Positions 9,788 through 22,450 of a stretch of 64,000 bases of DNA are shown here, one piece after another. The notes below the pieces were generated by a model that saw only the letters and a program-made list of their open reading frames with translations, ran no database searches and had not been told where the DNA came from. The position numbers were made by a program, and so were the translations under genes. Position 1 is the first letter of the stretch, and each line of letters begins with the position of its first letter. The DNA comes from Pleurocapsa minor GSE-CHR-MK 17-07R (lineage in GTDB: Bacteria > Chloroflexota > Anaerolineae > Aggregatilineales > Phototrophicaceae), in NCBI GenBank assembly GCA_019359125.1, contig JAHHHY010000002.1:1-64000 (forward strand), written 5' to 3'.

Positions 9788-11776
9788 GTGAAGTGGGTAT
9801 GCCTGGTGCTGCTGGCGCTGCTGCTTGCGGCCTGTTCCACGGGGGACGAACAACCGACGCTGGTCGCGAATGACCTGCCGCTGGTGACGCGTGTGCTGCC
9901 CGCGTGGATTGATACCCAGGATGCGCTTCAGGCGCAGGAGCGCGGCCGCCGCTGGCAGTTTGTGGCGGGTGACGGCGACGGCGTGCAGATCACCGCGACC
10001 GATGCGACCGGCCAGCCGATGCCGATCGTGCTGAGCGACGCACAGGGGCGCATCCTCAGCCGGGGCATGGGCGCTGCGATTGCGGTGCTGCCCGCAGGCG
10101 GCACGTTCAATGCCGATGTGCTGCGCCCGGATACGATCGTGCCTGAGCTTAAGCTGACATACAGCGTGCGCCTGTCGCTGACCAACCGCGAGACGCCCAC
10201 CGCCACCGTCACGCCGACCCGCACAGCGACCGCGACGCGCACGGCCACGGACATCCGCACCGCGACGCGTACGCCGACGGCGACCCGCACCGGCACAGCG
10301 ACGCGCACCCCAACCAACACCTTTACCCCGTCGAATACGCCCACGCCATCGAATACGCCCACGGCCGTGTATGCCCCGCTGGGCAGCTTTCAGGGCGTGC
10401 TGAATGCCGGGATGCCCGCCAGCGGCCGCCTGATCGCCACGTTTGACCGGCTGGTGTGGGCCGTGCCTGCCCAGCGCGGCGATTTCCTGACGATTGAGGC
10501 GGCTCCCGATGCAGATGAATTTGATCCCGCGCTGGCGATCTACGACCCGCAGGGCGGGCTGATGGCGATGGACGATGACGCGGGCGGCGGACGGTCAGCG
10601 CGCCTGTTTGCCGTGGAGATCGACGCGTCGGGCACCTACTACGTGCAGGCCTACAGCCGTTCATCCACAGGCGGCACGCTGACGGTGCGCCTGACCCGCG
10701 ATGCCTCGCGCCCGCGCCCGGCCCTGGTCGCCCCGACCAGCACGCCGCCGCTGCCGCTGGGCACGCTGGCCGCGCAGGCCGGGCTGGATACGCTGGTCGA
10801 TCATGTGCCCGTGCTGAGCGATATCGAGCGGCGCGGCGACTTCCAGCGCTTTGTGTTCCAGGGGCGCACAGGCGGCATTTATACGATTGCAGCGCGCCCG
10901 GCAGACGGCTCCGGCATTGTGCCGCGTGTGCAGTTGTTCAATCCGGCGGGCGAGCTGATGTCTGATGTGATCGCCAGCCCGGAAAGCGGAAATGACGCGC
11001 TGATTCCCTCGCTGGGCGTGATCGAGGACGGCGTGTATTCCGTGTTTGTGACCGGAGAATTTGACACGACCGGCGCCTTCATCGTGGCGATGGGGCTGGG
11101 CGGCAGTTATGCCGATGTGCTGCGCCCTGAGCTGCTGGCCAACCGGCCGGTCGCGGGCGAGCTGGCGCGCCGCGGCCTGCGCGATGTGTATCCGCTCAAC
11201 CTGAACGCGGGCGATGTGGTCACGATTCAGGTGACGCCGCGCACTGCCGGGCTGGTCGCGGTGCTGGCGCTGGTCGCGCCGGATGGCACGCTGCTGGCGC
11301 AGTCGCCGGACGCCGCCGCGGGCACCTATGCGTTATCCAGTGTGAGCGCGCCGGTGACGGGCACGTATCGTGTGCAGGTGACCGGCTATAACCGCACGAA
11401 TCTGGGCGCGGGCGCGTATGAAGTGGTGTGGCTGCGCACGCGCCTCGCCCCGACCGCGACCCCGCCGCTGGCGACCTATCTGCTGCTGGCCGCTGATGAC
11501 ATCCTGCGCGCCAATCAGTATACGGAATATGTGTTTCAGGGCTTCGCCGGGCAGCGCGTGCAGGTGGACGTGACCGCGATTGCGCCCGATCTTGACCCGG
11601 TGGCGGAGCTGTTCGGGCCGGACGGCAACAGCGTCATCTTCTCGGACGACGGCGATTTTTCGCGCAATCCATCGTTCATCGTACAGCTTCCGTCCAGCGG
11701 CGCTTTCACGCTGCGCGTCAACGGCTACAACGGGTCGGCGGGCGCGGTCGAGGTGACGGTTCGCGGGCTGGAATAG
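9788..11776 (+). CDS. Lipoprotein with Thr/Pro-rich stalk and four PPC-like beta domains
   Basis: 662 aa from a GTG start one base after the preceding stop. The signal peptide ends in a lipobox (LLLAAC, Cys at about 16), so the mature protein should be lipid-anchored outside the membrane. After a beta-rich segment comes a repetitive Thr-rich stalk (about 135-195, TPTxTxT units). Four modules of about 120-150 aa follow, each with FDPALAIYDPQG/DLDPVAELFGPDG-like and GTYYVQAYS/GAFTLRVNGY-like strands typical of pre-peptidase C-terminal (PPC) domains. No protease or hydrolase domain is present. A surface binding or structural role is inferred. Confidence 0.85.
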   Translation: MKWVCLVLLALLLAACSTGDEQPTLVANDLPLVTRVLPAWIDTQDALQAQERGRRWQFVAGDGDGVQITATDATGQPMPIVLSDAQGRILSRGMGAAIAVLPAGGTFNADVLRPDTIVPELKLTYSVRLSLTNRETPTATVTPTRTATATRTATDIRTATRTPTATRTGTATRTPTNTFTPSNTPTPSNTPTAVYAPLGSFQGVLNAGMPASGRLIATFDRLVWAVPAQRGDFLTIEAAPDADEFDPALAIYDPQGGLMAMDDDAGGGRSARLFAVEIDASGTYYVQAYSRSSTGGTLTVRLTRDASRPRPALVAPTSTPPLPLGTLAAQAGLDTLVDHVPVLSDIERRGDFQRFVFQGRTGGIYTIAARPADGSGIVPRVQLFNPAGELMSDVIASPESGNDALIPSLGVIEDGVYSVFVTGEFDTTGAFIVAMGLGGSYADVLRPELLANRPVAGELARRGLRDVYPLNLNAGDVVTIQVTPRTAGLVAVLALVAPDGTLLAQSPDAAAGTYALSSVSAPVTGTYRVQVTGYNRTNLGAGAYEVVWLRTRLAPTATPPLATYLLLAADDILRANQYTEYVFQGFAGQRVQVDVTAIAPDLDPVAELFGPDGNSVIFSDDGDFSRNPSFIVQLPSSGAFTLRVNGYNGSAGAVEVTVRGLE

Positions 11777-11789
11777 CGCGTGACCTGTT

Positions 11790-13538
11790 CTAGAGCACGC
11801 GGTACATCACCGTAAAGTCCGCGCGATCTTTGGTTTTGCGCGGGGCCACCGGCTCGCACGGGATATAGTCCTTCACCTGCGCCCAGGTTTCCGCGCTCAG
11901 CACGATTTCGCCGCGCCCGGCATTCTCCTGCAGCAGCTTGGCCATATCCATCGCGTCACCAATCGCGGAAAACTCGCGGCGTTCGGCGCTGCCCACGTTG
12001 CCCAGCACGGCCAGGCCGGTATGGATGCCGACGCCGAACAACAGGCGCTGGTCGGGCGGCAGGGTTTCGTGCAGCGAAGCGACTTCGTGGCGCATCATGA
12101 TGGCCGCCCGCACCGCCCGCAGCGCGTGGTCCGCCTGAATGTTCAGCGGCGTGTTAAACAGGCCGGTCACCGCGTCGCCGATGTATTTGTCCACCAGCCC
12201 GTCGGACAGATTGATGGCATCGCTGGCGACTGCCAGATACCGGTTGATGATCTGCATCAGGTCTTCCGGCTCCAGTCTCTCGCTGAAGCTGGTGAATCCG
12301 CGCACGTCGGAAAAGAGCACGGTGATTTCGCATTCCTGCCCACCCATCGCCGCGATGTCTTCCGAGCGCAGATTTTCCACCAGCGCCAGCGGCAGATACA
12401 CGCGTGCCTGGGCCAGCTGCGCCTCGCGCTCCCGCGTCTCGGTCAGGTCATCGAGCACGAGCGCCGCGCCGGTGCTGCCCGTTTCGGGGTCACGCAGCGG
12501 GCTGAGCACCACGCGCCAGTAGCGCCAGCCGCGCTGGTCGAGGTTGATTTCGGCCTCCACCAGCTGCGAGACATTCTGCGTGACGACCTGCTCCAGCGTG
12601 CCCCCGATGACCTCGGAGAAGGCGGGCAGGATCGCGGGCAGGAAGCGGCCGATTGCGTCGGCGGCCGTCGCGCCGGTAATTTGCTCTGCGGCCGGGTTGA
12701 ACGCATTGATGACGCCGCGTGCATCGAAGGTGATGATGCCGCTGGAAATACTCTGGAACACATTGTCCATCAGGTCGCGCACTTCGGTGATTTCGGCCAG
12801 GCGCGCGCGGGCAGAGGCAAACAGGCGCGCGTTCTGGATGGCGACGGCTGCCTGCCCGGCAAAGGCCTGCAGCAGGTCTTTCTCGTGCGCCTTGAACAAG
12901 CCGGCCAGGATGCGGTTGTCGCAGTAGACCACGCCGATGACCTCGCCATTGGACACCAGCGGCACCGCCAGAATGCTGCGCAGCCCGTAGCCAACGATGC
13001 TGTCGTTGCCCACGAAACGGTCATCAGCGCGCGCATTATCCGTCAGCACGGGTGCGCCGCTGGTCAGCACCTCGCGGATGATGGTGTTGCTGATCTTGAA
13101 GTCTTCGCGGCCAAGCTGTTCGCGGTCGATGCCGCGCGCGATGCGGAATTCAATCTCGCCGGTGGCCTCGTTCTTCAGCAGGATGAAACCGCGTTCCGCG
13201 CCGGTGAGCTGCACCACGGTGTCCATCACCGTATTGAGCACCGCATCCACGTCCAGCGACGAGTTCAGCAGCGCGGTCGTCTGGGCCAGGGCGCGCAGCT
13301 GGCGCAGCTCGATCTGCCCGGAGGTCAGCGTGCGGCCCATCGTCTCGATGCGCTGGCGAACATCGTTCAGGCGTTCCAGCGTGCCGGTGGGCAGGGTCAT
13401 GCCGCGTGGGCGCAGAAAGGCAATCTGCGACTGGAGCGCGGTGTTCAGCTCGGTAATCAGCGTCAGGATGTCGCGCAGCTGCTCCTGGGCCGAGCGGTTC
13501 GGCTCGATGCGCTGGAAATGGCTGGTGCTGTCAAGCAT
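11790..13538 (-). CDS. GAF-PAS class III nucleotidyl cyclase, metal-binding (C1-like) partner
   Basis: 582 aa. An N-terminal helical region is followed by a GAF domain (about 90-240), a PAS domain (about 255-375) and a class III cyclase domain (about 400-560). Both metal-binding Asp are present: D411 in VLFSDVRGF and D455 in DKYIGDAV. The transition-state Asn and Arg are not: the usual GDxVNxAxRL reads GDAMDMAKLL, giving D531 and L535. A homodimer should therefore be inactive or weak. The ATG at 13538 overlaps the 3' end of the upstream cyclase gene by 8 bp and has GAGGTG upstream. I infer that it pairs with that protein, supplying the metal site. There is no signal peptide or membrane segment, so it is cytoplasmic. 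Confidence 0.9.
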   Translation of the reverse strand: MLDSTSHFQRIEPNRSAQEQLRDILTLITELNTALQSQIAFLRPRGMTLPTGTLERLNDVRQRIETMGRTLTSGQIELRQLRALAQTTALLNSSLDVDAVLNTVMDTVVQLTGAERGFILLKNEATGEIEFRIARGIDREQLGREDFKISNTIIREVLTSGAPVLTDNARADDRFVGNDSIVGYGLRSILAVPLVSNGEVIGVVYCDNRILAGLFKAHEKDLLQAFAGQAAVAIQNARLFASARARLAEITEVRDLMDNVFQSISSGIITFDARGVINAFNPAAEQITGATAADAIGRFLPAILPAFSEVIGGTLEQVVTQNVSQLVEAEINLDQRGWRYWRVVLSPLRDPETGSTGAALVLDDLTETREREAQLAQARVYLPLALVENLRSEDIAAMGGQECEITVLFSDVRGFTSFSERLEPEDLMQIINRYLAVASDAINLSDGLVDKYIGDAVTGLFNTPLNIQADHALRAVRAAIMMRHEVASLHETLPPDQRLLFGVGIHTGLAVLGNVGSAERREFSAIGDAMDMAKLLQENAGRGEIVLSAETWAQVKDYIPCEPVAPRKTKDRADFTVMYRVL

Positions 13539-15288
13539 GGAACACCTCGTAAAGGTCGGTCTGGCTCTGGCGGCCGCGCGCCTGCATCGCCCCGCGAGAC
13601 TCAAAACGCAGATGCGGGATCGGGCCATTCTGCGACGCCCGCGCCAGGCTCTCGCCGGTGATGAGCACCTGCCCGGCAGTCGCGCTTTCCTGGATGCGTT
13701 TGGTCAGGTTGATGGTGTCGCCGATGGCAGTAAAGCTGCGCCGCCGCAGCGAACCGACATTGCCCAGCGTGGCGATGCCGGTATGAACGGCGATGCTGTA
13801 CTGCGGCCCGCCCATGCGCCCGCCCAGCCTGGCCGCCAGCGTGTCGAACGGCTTGCGCATCAGGGCGGCCATCTCGATGGCGCGGCGTGCATGGTGCGCG
13901 TCCGGGTTGAGCTGGGTATTGAACAGGATCATGATTTCATTGCCCAGATACTTGTCGATGATGCCCTGCGACGCATGGATAACTTCGGTCGCCGTTTGCA
14001 GGTAGATATTGAGCAGCTCCATGCGCTGCTGCGGGCGCAGGCTGGCGGGGAAGTCGGCCAGGTCGCACACCGACATGAACACGCAGGTCACTTCGCGCCG
14101 TTCGCCGCCCATCGCCAGGTCGGCGATCTGATGGATGTTGTCGATCATGCCGGGCGGCAGATAGCGGCGGATCAGCCCCAGCGTCTCGTCACGCTCGCGT
14201 TCTTCGGTCAGGTCGTCCAGCACCATGGCGACGCCCTGGGTATCGCCGCCGCTGGTGCGGATCGGGCTGAGGCGCAGATTGAGCACGATGCGCCCGCGCC
14301 CGGATACTTCCGTGCGGCTTTCCAGCATCGTCCGTTTGCCTTCGGTGCTGACGGCGCGCATCGGTTCGCTCAGCGTCTGGTTCAGGTCGGGCAGCACCTG
14401 CGGCAGCGTATGCCCGACGGTGGATTCCGCAGGCGCGTTCAGGATGGTGCTGGCGGCGCGGTTGATGAGCGTGATATGGCCCTCGGCGTTGGTGGTGATG
14501 ACGCCGCTGCCGATCGACATGAACACGTTCTCGATGATTTCGCGGGCGCGCCCGATTTCCGCCAGCGTCTCCTGCACCTGTTCGAACAGCATGGCGTTGT
14601 CGATGGCGACGCTGGCCTGGTTGGCGAAAGCGGTCAGCAGGTTCAGCTCGCGGCTGCTGAAGACGGCCTCGCGGTATTTGTTGTCGGCATACAGCGCGCC
14701 CTCGACGCGCTCGCGCGAGCTGCCCCGGTCGCGGAACGTCAGCGGCACGCAGGCGATCGAGCGCAGCACGAAGCGCGCCACCGTGTCGCTTTCTGAGAGG
14801 CGCAGGTCCTGCATGGCATTGTCGGTCAGGATGGGCTCGCCGGTGGTCAGCACCTGGCGCAGGATCGTCCGGCTGACTTCGTCTTCGCGCAGTTCGCTGT
14901 CATTCAGGCCGCGCGAGATGCGAAATTCCAGTTTGCCGCTCTTGCGGTCTTTCAGCAGGATGAAGCCGCGTTCTGCGCCGGTCAGCGCGATCAGCTCGTC
15001 CATGCTCTGCGACAGCACGCTGTCCACATCCAGCGACGAATTAATGGCCGCGGCGGTGGTGGCCAGCGAACGCAGCTGCTCAATCTCGGTATTGTCGGTG
15101 TTCAGCACCTCGGTCAGCTTGCCGATATCGTTGTGCAGAGTTGTCAGCGCCGAGAGCACGCCTTCGGGCAGGTGGATATCGCGCAGGCTGGCGATGCCTT
15201 CATGCCGCTGCAGCGCGGCGGAAAGTTCTTCCACGGTGATGCGCAGGCGCGACAGGGCAAGCGTTGGGGGCGGGAATTCTGCGGCCAT
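13531..15288 (-). CDS. GAF-PAS class III nucleotidyl cyclase, transition-state (C2-like) partner
   Basis: 585 aa from the ATG at 15288 (MAAEF), chosen because it gives the same length and layout as its partner. The order is helical N-terminus, GAF (about 90-245), PAS (about 260-375) and a class III cyclase domain (about 395-560). Both metal Asp are replaced: VFMSVCDL has S406, and DKYLGNEI has N450 (codon AAT, 13939-13941). The other active-site residues remain: base-contacting K446 and T520, and transition-state N527 and R531 in GDTINLTKRI. This is the exact reverse of the downstream gene. It resembles animal adenylyl cyclase C2 domains. Lys/Thr suggests ATP as the substrate, by analogy with bacterial class IIIb enzymes. 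Confidence 0.9.
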   Translation of the reverse strand: MAAEFPPPTLALSRLRITVEELSAALQRHEGIASLRDIHLPEGVLSALTTLHNDIGKLTEVLNTDNTEIEQLRSLATTAAAINSSLDVDSVLSQSMDELIALTGAERGFILLKDRKSGKLEFRISRGLNDSELREDEVSRTILRQVLTTGEPILTDNAMQDLRLSESDTVARFVLRSIACVPLTFRDRGSSRERVEGALYADNKYREAVFSSRELNLLTAFANQASVAIDNAMLFEQVQETLAEIGRAREIIENVFMSIGSGVITTNAEGHITLINRAASTILNAPAESTVGHTLPQVLPDLNQTLSEPMRAVSTEGKRTMLESRTEVSGRGRIVLNLRLSPIRTSGGDTQGVAMVLDDLTEERERDETLGLIRRYLPPGMIDNIHQIADLAMGGERREVTCVFMSVCDLADFPASLRPQQRMELLNIYLQTATEVIHASQGIIDKYLGNEIMILFNTQLNPDAHHARRAIEMAALMRKPFDTLAARLGGRMGGPQYSIAVHTGIATLGNVGSLRRRSFTAIGDTINLTKRIQESATAGQVLITGESLARASQNGPIPHLRFESRGAMQARGRQSQTDLYEVFHA

Positions 15289-19108: not shown

Positions 19109-19168
19109 CGGTTACGTTATTTCTCCAGAAAATACTGTTTATCCGCCGAGTCTCCGTTGAGGTTCTCT

Positions 19169-22100
19169 ATGCCCGCAGAAGCGTCTAACCTTCCCGTTCA
19201 GCTTGACACCCTGTGGATCGTGATTACGGCCGCCGTCGTGTTTCTGATGCAGGCGGGATTCCTGTGTCTGGAAACCGGCCTGACGCGCAGCAAAAACAAT
19301 ATCAATGCCGCGATGAAAAACCTGACCGACTTTGGCCTGACGACGCTGATCTTCTGGCTGTTCGGCTATGGCCTGATGTTTGGCCGCAATCTGGGCGGAT
19401 TCGTGGGGGTCAGCGATTTTGCCCTCGACTACAACGGCACCGACACCAGCAGCTTCGGCTTCTTCTTCTTTCAGGTGATGTTCTGCGGCGCGGCGGTGAC
19501 CATCCTGGCTGGCTCGATTGCCGAGCGCGTCGGCTTTTCGGCCTACCTGATCATGGCGGCGTTTGGGGCCATCGTGATCTACCCGCTGTTTGGCAACTGG
19601 GTGTGGAACGGCCTCAACTTCGGCGAGTTCAATGGCTGGCTGGCACAGCTCGGCTTCCGCGACTTCGCTGGTTCCAGCGTGGTGCACAGCCTGGGCGGGT
19701 GGATTTCGCTGGCGGCCATCATCATTGTGGGCGCGCGCGCGAATCGCTTCCCTAAAGATGGCCCGCCGCGCCGCATCCCTGGCGCCGACGTGCCGCTGGC
19801 CACGCTGGGCGTGATGCTGCTGTGGTTCGGCTGGTTCGGCTTCAACGCGGGCAGCACCATCGTCATGAACAGTGACCAGGCCCCGCGCATCCTCGTCAAT
19901 ACGATTATCGCCAGCTCGGCAGGCATGATTGTCACGCTGGCTGTGGGCTGGCGCGTGCGCAAACGCCCGGAAGTCGACCTGATCCTGAATGGCTCGCTGG
20001 CGGGTGCGGTGGGCATCACGGCGAGCTGCTATGCCGTCAGCCTACCTGCCAGCATCATCATCGGCGGCGTTTCCGGGCTGGTCATGCTGCTGGTCGATGG
20101 GCTGCTGGAGCGTTTCCGGCTGGACGACGCGGTCGGGGCGGTGCCGGTGCATCTGGGCGCAGGTGTCTGGGGCACGCTGGCGGTGGGCATCTTCGGCCAG
20201 CCGGAACTGCTGAATACCGGGCTGGGCCGCATCGAGCAGATCGGCGTGCAGGTGCTGGGCATCGTGGTGTGCGCGGTCTGGGCATTCGGCCTGTCGTACA
20301 TCGCCTTCAACATCATCAATCGCATCCGGCCGCTGCGCGTGACCGACAAGGAAGAATTTGAAGGCCTGAATGTGAGCGAGCATGGCGCTACCACCGAGCT
20401 GTATGACTTCTTCACGGTGATGGACGAGCAGGCGGAAACGGGTGACCTGAGCAAGCGCGTGCCGGTGGAGCCGTTCACTGAAGTGGGCCGCATCGCTGAC
20501 CGCTATAACCGTCTGATGGATTCGCTGGAGGTGCTGAGCACGCGCACCGATGCGATCGTGCGCACCGCGCTGGACGGCATCGTCACCTTTACCCGTTCGG
20601 CCGAGTCGCTGCTGGTGGAGACGATCAATCCTGCCGCCGAGAAGATGTTTGGCTACCAGGGGGGCGATTTGTCCGGCCACCCGGTCGCGCTGCTGATCGG
20701 CGCGGATACCACCACGCTGCCTTTTGACCTGAACGAGGTCATCCGGCGCGGGGGCTACCGCGAGACGTTAGGCAGGCGCAGCGACGGCAGCCTGTTTCCG
20801 ATGGAGGTCGTGGTCACGCAGGCGCAGGTGGGCGGGCACACGCTGTTCACCGGCACCTTCCGCGATATCACCAACCGCAAGCTGGCCGAGGAACAACTGC
20901 TGGAAGCGAAGGAAGCGGCCGAGACGGCCAACCGCAGCAAGAGCACGTTTCTGGCCAATATGAGCCACGAGCTGCGCACGCCGCTGAACGCGATCATCGG
21001 CTACAGCGAAATGCTTCAGGAAGACATGATCGATGTGGGCAGCGACACCTATGTGCCTGACCTGCAAAAAATTCAGACGGCAGGGCATCATCTGCTCTCG
21101 CTGATTAACGACATCCTCGACATCAGCAAGATTGAAGCAGGCCGCATGGACCTGCATCTGGAAGCCTTCGACGTGCGCATGATGATGGCCGATATCGTCA
21201 CGACGATGACCCCGCTGGTAGAGAAGAAGCACAACGCGCTTGAGGTCGTTTATGACCACGACCCGGCCGAGATGACCGCCGACCTGACAAAAGTGCGCCA
21301 GGTCATCATCAACCTGCTCAGCAACGCCTCTAAATTCACCGACCACGGCACGATCACCGTGCGCGTGTCGCGCCAGCAGTACGGCGGAACAGACTGGCTG
21401 TCTTTTGCCGTGGCCGACACCGGCATCGGCATGACCGACGAGCAGATCAGCCGCCTGTTTCAGAAGTTCATGCAGGCCGACAGCAGCACGACGCGCAAGT
21501 ATGGCGGCACCGGCCTGGGGCTGGCCATCAGCAAGGCGTTCTGCGAGATGATGGGCGGCGATATCACCGTGAGCAGCGTGTATGGCGAGGGGACGGTGTT
21601 CACCGTGCAGCTTCCGGCCACGGTCACGCGCGATGCCCAGGCGGCTGAGTCCACGCTGACGGAGCGCGAGACCAATGAAATGGCGGCCGTGCGCGCAGGT
21701 GAATTCAAGGTGCTGGTCATCGACGATGATGTGGTCGTGCGCGACCTGATCAAGCGCACCATGACCAAAGAAAACTGCACCGTGCTGCTGGCGGCCAATG
21801 GCGCTGACGGCGTGAAGATGGCGCGTGAAAACCGGCCCGATGTGATCACGTTGGACCTGCTGATGCCGGGCATGGACGGCTGGGCGGTGCTGGCCACGCT
21901 CAAGAGCGACCCGCTGACGAGCGATATCCCGGTCATCGTGCTGACGATGGCCGAAACGAAAGACAAGGGTTTCACGCTGGGGGCGTCGGCATTCCTGATC
22001 AAGCCGCTGGACCGGCGCGCGCTGGTTTCTTCGATCAACCAGTATCGGCGTGCCGACGGCGACCAGGCCGGGCGCGTGCTGGTCATCGAGGACAACGACG

Positions 22101-22450
22101 ATACCCGCGAAATGATTCGGCGCACGCTGGCCAATGACGGCTGGAGCGTGTATGAGGCGGAGAACGGGCGCGTCGGGCTGGAACGCCTGGCCTATGCCCA
22201 GCCGGACCTGATTCTGCTGGACCTGATGATGCCGGAAATGGACGGGTTCGAGTTTCTGGTGGAGCTGCGCGGCAGCGACAGCCCGTGGCGCGAAATTCCG
22301 GTCATCGTGGTGACGGCCAAAGACCTGGAATCGAGCGATCACGAGGTGCTCAAGGGGCGCGTGGAGCAGATTGTGCAAAAGGGCCTGCACACCCGCGAGT
22401 CGCTGCTGAACGAGGTGCGCCAGCTGGTGCAGCGCCGCCAGGTGGAGTAG
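19169..22450 (+). CDS. Ammonium transporter-histidine kinase-double receiver fusion protein
   Basis: 1093 aa from the ATG at 19169, with GAGG seven bases upstream. Residues 15-395 are an Amt/Rh channel: [18 protein letters not shown], and the pore twin His as H173 (VVHSLGG) and H328 (VPVHLGAG). A HAMP-like linker (about 410-455) and a PAS domain (about 460-575) follow. The kinase has HisKA with H600 in [10 protein letters not shown] and an ATPase domain with DTGIGM and [10 protein letters not shown]. Two receivers end the protein, with D896 ([10 protein letters not shown]) and D1018 ([10 protein letters not shown]). It should sense or conduct ammonium and pass the signal through a phosphorelay. 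No HPt domain or DNA-binding output is encoded beside it. The stop codon lies at the edge of a repeat. Confidence 0.95.

Follow-up and report, generated by a model that had tools for sequence, protein, structure and literature searches.

The Locus

The window, a 64,000-nucleotide stretch of Pleurocapsa minor GSE-CHR-MK 17-07R (contig JAHHHY010000002.1, positions 1 to 64,000; order Aggregatilineales, class Anaerolineae, phylum Chloroflexota), carries on its minus strand two genes, A and B, whose products most likely act together as one class III adenylyl cyclase. An earlier note, made from the sequence alone, had described them as overlapping by 8 bp and as alike in length and layout, and this is borne out: both are intact open reading frames (ORFs), of 585 and 582 aa, which have positions 13531-13538 in common, are paralogs, and present the identical order of Pfam domains GAF, PAS and Guanylate_cyc. 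These are the sole Pfam domains in either protein, and PF00211 is matched at 45.1 bits by A and 53.4 bits by B, for a curated cut-off of 21.9. A Pfam scan up to E 0.01 gave no H-NOX match in A or B, and no transmembrane domain was recognized by Pfam in either. Among solved structures, those closest in sequence to either cyclase domain come from bacterial class III cyclases (6fht, Cya2 2w01, CyaB 3r5g and CyaC 1wc0/1wc1). The genes and their domains are located as follows.

13531-15288, minus strand: gene A, predicted upstream subunit, 585 aa, GAF-PAS-class III cyclase (ORF, Pfam)
14602-15030, minus strand: GAF domain of A, residues 87-229 (PF01590)
14194-14517, minus strand: PAS domain of A, residues 258-365 (PF08448)
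13561-14097, minus strand: cyclase domain of A, residues 398-576 (PF00211)
13531-13538, minus strand: 8-bp overlap of the A stop with the B start (ORF coordinates)
11790-13538, minus strand: gene B, predicted downstream subunit, 582 aa, GAF-PAS-class III cyclase (ORF, Pfam)
12837-13253, minus strand: GAF domain of B, residues 96-234 (PF01590)
12429-12758, minus strand: PAS domain of B, residues 261-370 (PF08448)
11871-12329, minus strand: cyclase domain of B, residues 404-556 (PF00211)

Complementary Active Sites

The roles discussed below (metal-binding Asp, base-selecting Lys and Thr, transition-state Asn and Arg) are assigned from known class III cyclases. Residue counts come from the window and its relatives (A, n = 79; B, n = 75, window included). 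Each position in the window was established by alignment and rechecked at the codon level.

14071-14073, minus strand: A Ser406, at the first metal-Asp column
13951-13953, minus strand: A Lys446, base-selecting Lys (79/79 A)
13939-13941, minus strand: A Asn450, at the second metal-Asp column (Asp in 0/79 A)
13729-13731, minus strand: A Thr520, base-selecting Thr/Ser (79/79 A)
13696-13710, minus strand: A Asn527 to Arg531, transition-state Asn and Arg (each 79/79 A)
12306-12308, minus strand: B Asp411, first metal Asp (75/75 B)
12174-12176, minus strand: B Asp455, second metal Asp (75/75 B)
11934-11948, minus strand: B Asp531 to Leu535, at the canonical Asn and Arg columns (Arg in 0/75 B)

Both residue inventories of the earlier note are confirmed by these positions, that of the upstream protein with Ser406 and Asn450 beside the retained Lys446, Thr520, Asn527 and Arg531, and that of the downstream protein with both metal Asp and with Asp531 and Leu535 in place of Asn and Arg. 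The B protein of the window also has Lys451 at the base-selecting Lys column. Among the relatives, this column of B holds Lys in 68/75 and Gln in 7, and its Thr column holds Ala, Gly or Asn in 24 of the 75. In A, the base-selecting Thr column is Thr in 74/79 and Ser in 5/79, and the first metal column is Asp in 39/78 and Glu in 27/78, the 79th sequence being cut at that position. Not one protein of either kind carries the full catalytic set (0/79 A, 0/75 B), as opposed to 46 single homologs that have all of it; two metal Asp, Asn and Arg are brought together only by the pair jointly, with the Asp coming from B and the Asn and Arg from A.

Conservation is restricted to this composite site, in line with the picture of one good and one dead site drawn in the earlier note. 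Over nine active-site positions, mean entropy is 0.10 bit in the composite site versus 2.05 bit in its mirror; the same measure gives 0.27 bit in canonical homologs and 1.35-1.58 bit for the cyclase-domain background. Further columns conserved in canonical homologs have been divided between the two proteins: Phe415, Glu420, Ala456, Leu499, Gly502 and Gln537 are retained by B and lost in A, and the Gly572 column is retained by A and lost in B. Derived residues have also become near-invariant, namely Glu451 (70/79) and Thr507 (78/79) in A and Glu402 (70/75) in B, at columns that in most canonical homologs are Ala, Val and Arg, respectively. These three residues may belong to a new regulatory site or may govern which subunits pair.

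The classes A, B and C used here were set by the residues themselves. Independently of that definition, none of the complete ORFs at the pair loci falls into a further class, and the classes agree with position, tree and family. Because every one of the 79 A and 75 B, window included, shows the complementary split, sequencing error, which the earlier note had named as a possible source of the missing residues, is excluded, as are a pseudogene and chance.

Distribution of the Pair

A search with A was run on the window genome and 100 relatives of the same order, and 96 of these 101 genomes gave matches, many of them as adjacent pairs. Eighty loci were fetched, one per genome, and their homologous ORFs were read. 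A is present in 78 of them and is directly followed by a complete B in 74; the remaining four A loci (L040, L064, L068 and L072) end at contig edges. The other two fetched loci, both from family f2, hold one canonical copy each. The two genes are co-inherited: all 74 complete pairs are adjacent, on the same strand and with A upstream, so that the two patterns of loss, which the earlier note had asked to be looked for in related genomes, always occur together. When the nearest plausible start of B is taken, 45/74 pairs overlap at the A stop and another 23 have the start within 60 bp of it. Left out were three truncated ORFs of 157 in this reading and, in a later one, three truncated ORFs and a spurious GAF ORF (L156).

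Of the eight families that the sample of the order covers, seven show the split, f5 through A alone, as the f5 genome G064 yielded A and only the first part of B. Evidence for the pair extends to 85 of the 101 genomes, consisting of the window genome, the 78 fetched with A, two genomes with adjacent matches in the A search (G073 and G078), and four partial cases. Among the latter, G006 shows the front of A only, G031 has B only, at a contig edge, and G038 has a cut A and a cut B; in G071 (L299, contig G071:C23), A and B are each spread over two frames, probably through assembly errors, and the residue pattern is still complementary. The rest comprises eight genomes with a canonical homolog (f2), five without a PF00211 match, and three (G034, G042 and G081, 75-85% complete) in which the pair was not found among what was read.

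When the flanking ORFs of complete pairs were clustered in a second set of at least 80 loci, drawn largely from the same genomes and hence not independent of the first, no universal neighbor gene was found (antisense noise ORFs were retained), since no recurrent cluster exceeds 19 loci and the biggest ones seem, from their representatives, to derive from one related group. In the window, the convergent neighbor (9788-11776, plus strand) encodes a protein of 662 aa that contains a PPC domain and a threonine-rich stretch. Farther away (19157-22450, plus strand) lies a gene whose product joins an ammonium transporter to PAS, histidine kinase and two receiver domains, a probable ammonium sensor.

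Single-Gene Homologs and Origin of the Pair

Homologs occurring alone, which the earlier note had counted as evidence against an obligate pair, do exist, but all complete ones that were read retain both Asp, Asn and Arg. The eight genomes sampled from family f2, which belongs to the same order, each gave a close homolog that is canonical, with all six residues. A class-wide search with a B profile matched 86/249 genomes, 13 of them from the order; of the other 73 matches, the 38 read over their full length are without exception canonical. After removal of seven duplicate loci from the canonical rows, the distinct canonical sequences with all six residues number 46, f2 included. A phylum-wide search with an A profile matched 59/301 genomes at E 1e-100 or better, twice only in the window genome and in G029 and once in each of the other 57. 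The 18 same-class loci read from this search are canonical, their genomes being partly shared with those of the 46. Of the 37 loci read from outside the class, one is cut before the Asn, and both Asp, Asn and Arg are found in 36/36 of the complete ones.

At the base-selecting Lys column, these 36 complete out-of-class loci have Lys in 7, Ala in 16, Met in 12 and Gly in 1, those with an altered residue including L329-L331, L334-L342 and others of L326-L362. With the Lys retained in just 7/36, they count as canonical in respect of the four catalytic residues alone, and the substrate of the 29 in which it is replaced may differ.

A maximum-likelihood tree computed without the active-site columns, on 66 of 200 aligned rows, groups A (support 100/99) with B (100/97) as its sister clade (100/100); f2 adjoins them (100/100) and the remaining canonical rows fall outside. 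Since A and B are sister clades beside f2, this topology points to one tandem duplication in the stem of the seven families (f5 being represented by A alone), after the split from f2, with the complementary losses falling on the A stem and the B stem subsequent to the duplication. The starting point would have been a canonical, presumably homodimeric, GAF-PAS-cyclase, of which the single-gene form survives in the sister family. A pair older than the f2 split is not favored, as 8/8 close homologs in f2 are canonical and f2 lies outside A+B with full support. Median identity is about 45% within A and within B, and 40% between A and B of one genome. The distance matrices of A and B correlate over 75 pairs with r = 0.895 (best of 1000 shuffles, 0.09), a value that would also arise from shared descent alone.

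A Predicted Obligate Heterodimer and Its Alternatives

We consider it highly probable (roughly 0.88) that a class III adenylyl cyclase is built from A and B as its subunits and works only as an A:B heterodimer. In the proposed mechanism, B would bind two metals and the triphosphate through Asp411, Asp455 and the DVRGFT loop, and A would supply the adenine-selecting Lys446 and Thr520 and the transition-state Asn527 and Arg531. The dimer would hold one complete site and a mirror site without catalytic residues. As each subunit has its own GAF and PAS domains, two sensor sets would feed a single active site. The residues, their complementary conservation, the joint inheritance of the genes and the duplication tree are direct results, and heterodimer formation, the synthesis of cyclic AMP (cAMP) and the ligands of the sensors are inferred. 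The presence of Lys together with Thr/Asp, rather than Glu/Cys, at the base-selecting positions of the half that supplies Asn and Arg is a mark of adenylyl specificity, a rule that does not by itself prove the substrate. The guanylyl cyclase Cya2 (2w01) has Glu at the Lys column; the Lys and Thr on the A side point to ATP as the substrate.

Genomic context adds to the argument. Six genomes of genus g17, which are 93-96% complete, contain just two PF00211 matches each, namely A and B; an additional match, below the cut-off, is present in a seventh, G046. If the pair were not an active heterodimer, the lineages of these six genomes would be without any class III cyclase, as judged by a search for PF00211 matches.

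Several observations weigh against the heterodimer. The losses are not all complete, because the first Asp persists in 39/78 A and the Asn in 11/75 B; the claim of exact complementarity made in the earlier note stands for the second Asp (0/79 A) and the Arg (0/75 B), but not for these two residues. Domains binding cyclic nucleotides (cNMP-binding domains) occur in 7/7 g17 genomes and also in 5/5 genomes without a PF00211 match, so that no link to an effector follows. Structural modeling, finally, did not dock the two domains. AlphaFold was run twice on a relative, L157, in which a natural same-frame A-stop-B arrangement could be read through as a tether; mixed alignments (A3 and A6) had placed A rows on the B half and were replaced by A-supported and B-supported ones (A7 and A8). 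In neither model, with pLDDT (predicted local distance difference test) of 79.5 and 77.8 and pTM (predicted template modeling) scores of 0.42 and 0.40, are the A and B cyclase domains packed as a dimer. Individually, the domains of this relative fold like CyaB and CyaC in both models (Z 25.3-27.1, root-mean-square deviation, rmsd, 1.6-2.0 A), with B matching CyaB 3r5g_B at Z 26.8 and 1.7 A and A matching CyaC 1wc0_A at Z 25.7 and 2.0 A, over 188 aligned residues each. Matches spanning both cyclase domains, to human soluble adenylyl cyclase (sAC) in the first model and to human AC5 in the second, have an rmsd near 30 A and of 29.5 A, respectively, and no listed match of either model covers both domains at low rmsd. 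The failure to dock may be due to the short linker and the shallow, unpaired alignment, and we regard the tethered models as uninformative, neither supporting nor refuting a dimer.

The alternative that survives best, although unlikely, is that cyclase activity has been lost and that the pair is a GAF-PAS sensor whose cyclase domains serve as nucleotide-binding or dimerization scaffolds. The clear decay of one of the two sites would fit such a scaffold, but the catalytic residues of the composite site are near-invariant (0.10 bit) in proteins with a median identity of only about 45% within A and within B, and the restriction of the Arg to A and of the second Asp to B would find no explanation without catalysis. 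It is still less probable that B functions as a homodimer by itself, through substitute residues, with A as a pseudo-cyclase regulator. B does have both metal Asp, and even the Asn in 11/75 sequences; its Arg column, however, is occupied by L, Y, K, F, I, Q, W or S without any consensus replacement, its Asn column is equally mixed, and A retains Asn and Arg in 79/79. Least plausible of all, that A and B each partner other cyclases of the cell could draw on six further PF00211 matches in the window genome, but is contradicted by the six g17 genomes in which A and B are the only such matches, and by the adjacency, mostly with overlap, of 74/74 complete pairs.

Should the A:B heterodimer produce cAMP, one possible target is a protein encoded by a 757-813-aa frame with a cNMP-binding domain and a GE..R cassette, observed in the g17 genomes G030, G046, G051, G054, G056, G058 and G060. 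A similar cNMP-binding frame is present in G052, a genome without a PF00211 match.

Comparison with Known Cyclases

Animal soluble guanylyl cyclase (sGC, alpha/beta) brings together two diverged class III domains that complete one site, one of the two sites being live and the other degenerate. In the C1/C2 domains of transmembrane adenylyl cyclases (PMC8815786), two diverged class III domains likewise leave one site live and the other degenerate, the arrangement predicted for A and B. A and B differ from both in being two bacterial genes with GAF-PAS sensors and no H-NOX or transmembrane Pfam domains, and in stemming from a separate duplication inside one Chloroflexota order; being two genes, they also depart from the single chain with two six-transmembrane cassettes of animal transmembrane adenylyl cyclases. 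Complementary loss between C1-like and C2-like domains, as in A and B, is likewise seen in ADCY10 (soluble adenylyl cyclase) and in sAC-like tandem proteins, which are one chain with an AAA domain and have only the cyclase domain in common with the pair. The window genome itself encodes, outside the window, a one-chain sAC-like frame of 1059 aa (G000:C22:156508-159684; L260:2009-5185) with two cyclase domains and AAA, the first showing the metal Asp and the second the Asn and Arg (motifs read by eye).

Heterodimeric class III cyclases are established in eukaryotes, and the fungal rhodopsin guanylyl cyclases NeoR/RGC are, as predicted for A and B, obligate heterodimers encoded by separate genes (PMC8815786); in A and B, it is the active site itself that is divided. 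Bacterial class III cyclases homodimerize according to PMC9552081 and PMC4821796, the second of which sees in this a fundamental difference from eukaryotes. Known bacterial members (6fht, Cya2, CyaB and CyaC) have the same cyclase fold as A and B but carry both half-sets of residues in each protein, where A and B have one half-set each, and the nearest relatives of the pair in the tree are likewise of the all-in-one-subunit type. The closest experimental parallel is Rv1625c, for which PMC4821796 reports that the inactive mutants D300A and R376A complement each other, the two chains bearing the kinds of lesion seen in A and B; that heterodimer results from mutagenesis of one gene, whereas the A/B split has been fixed by evolution in two. 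Fused dimeric class III forms are said in PMC9552081 to be unknown in bacteria, with which 519-567-aa open frames with two cyclase domains in five relatives (L255-L259) contrast. No bacterial two-gene heterodimeric class III cyclase was found in the titles and abstract starts of the open-access literature, among the matches listed, a scope that leaves aside subscription papers and the 'heterodimer' passages of the Actinobacteria survey PMC2447327.

If confirmed, the A/B pair would be a counter-example to the homodimer rule of bacterial class III cyclases, and would offer a two-input cyclase for engineering. Because the single-gene sister, the duplication and the completed split are all found in living relatives, the step from a homodimer to an obligate heterodimer in which one site is allowed to die is directly testable. 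More speculatively, the C1/C2 design may have been re-invented in a bacterial lineage with its dead mirror site recruited for regulation, as in animal cyclases; the gain in A of Glu451, beside the lost metal Asp, and of Thr507, and the reversal of a conserved Arg to Glu402 in B, might then enforce A:B pairing, and the enzyme could act as a two-sensor coincidence detector whose single-gene ancestor type is still alive in the sister family. In its mode of working, the predicted heterodimer is like animal C1/C2, and in its origin it is a derived bacterial GAF-PAS cyclase; the best reading is that its design evolved independently of that of animals.

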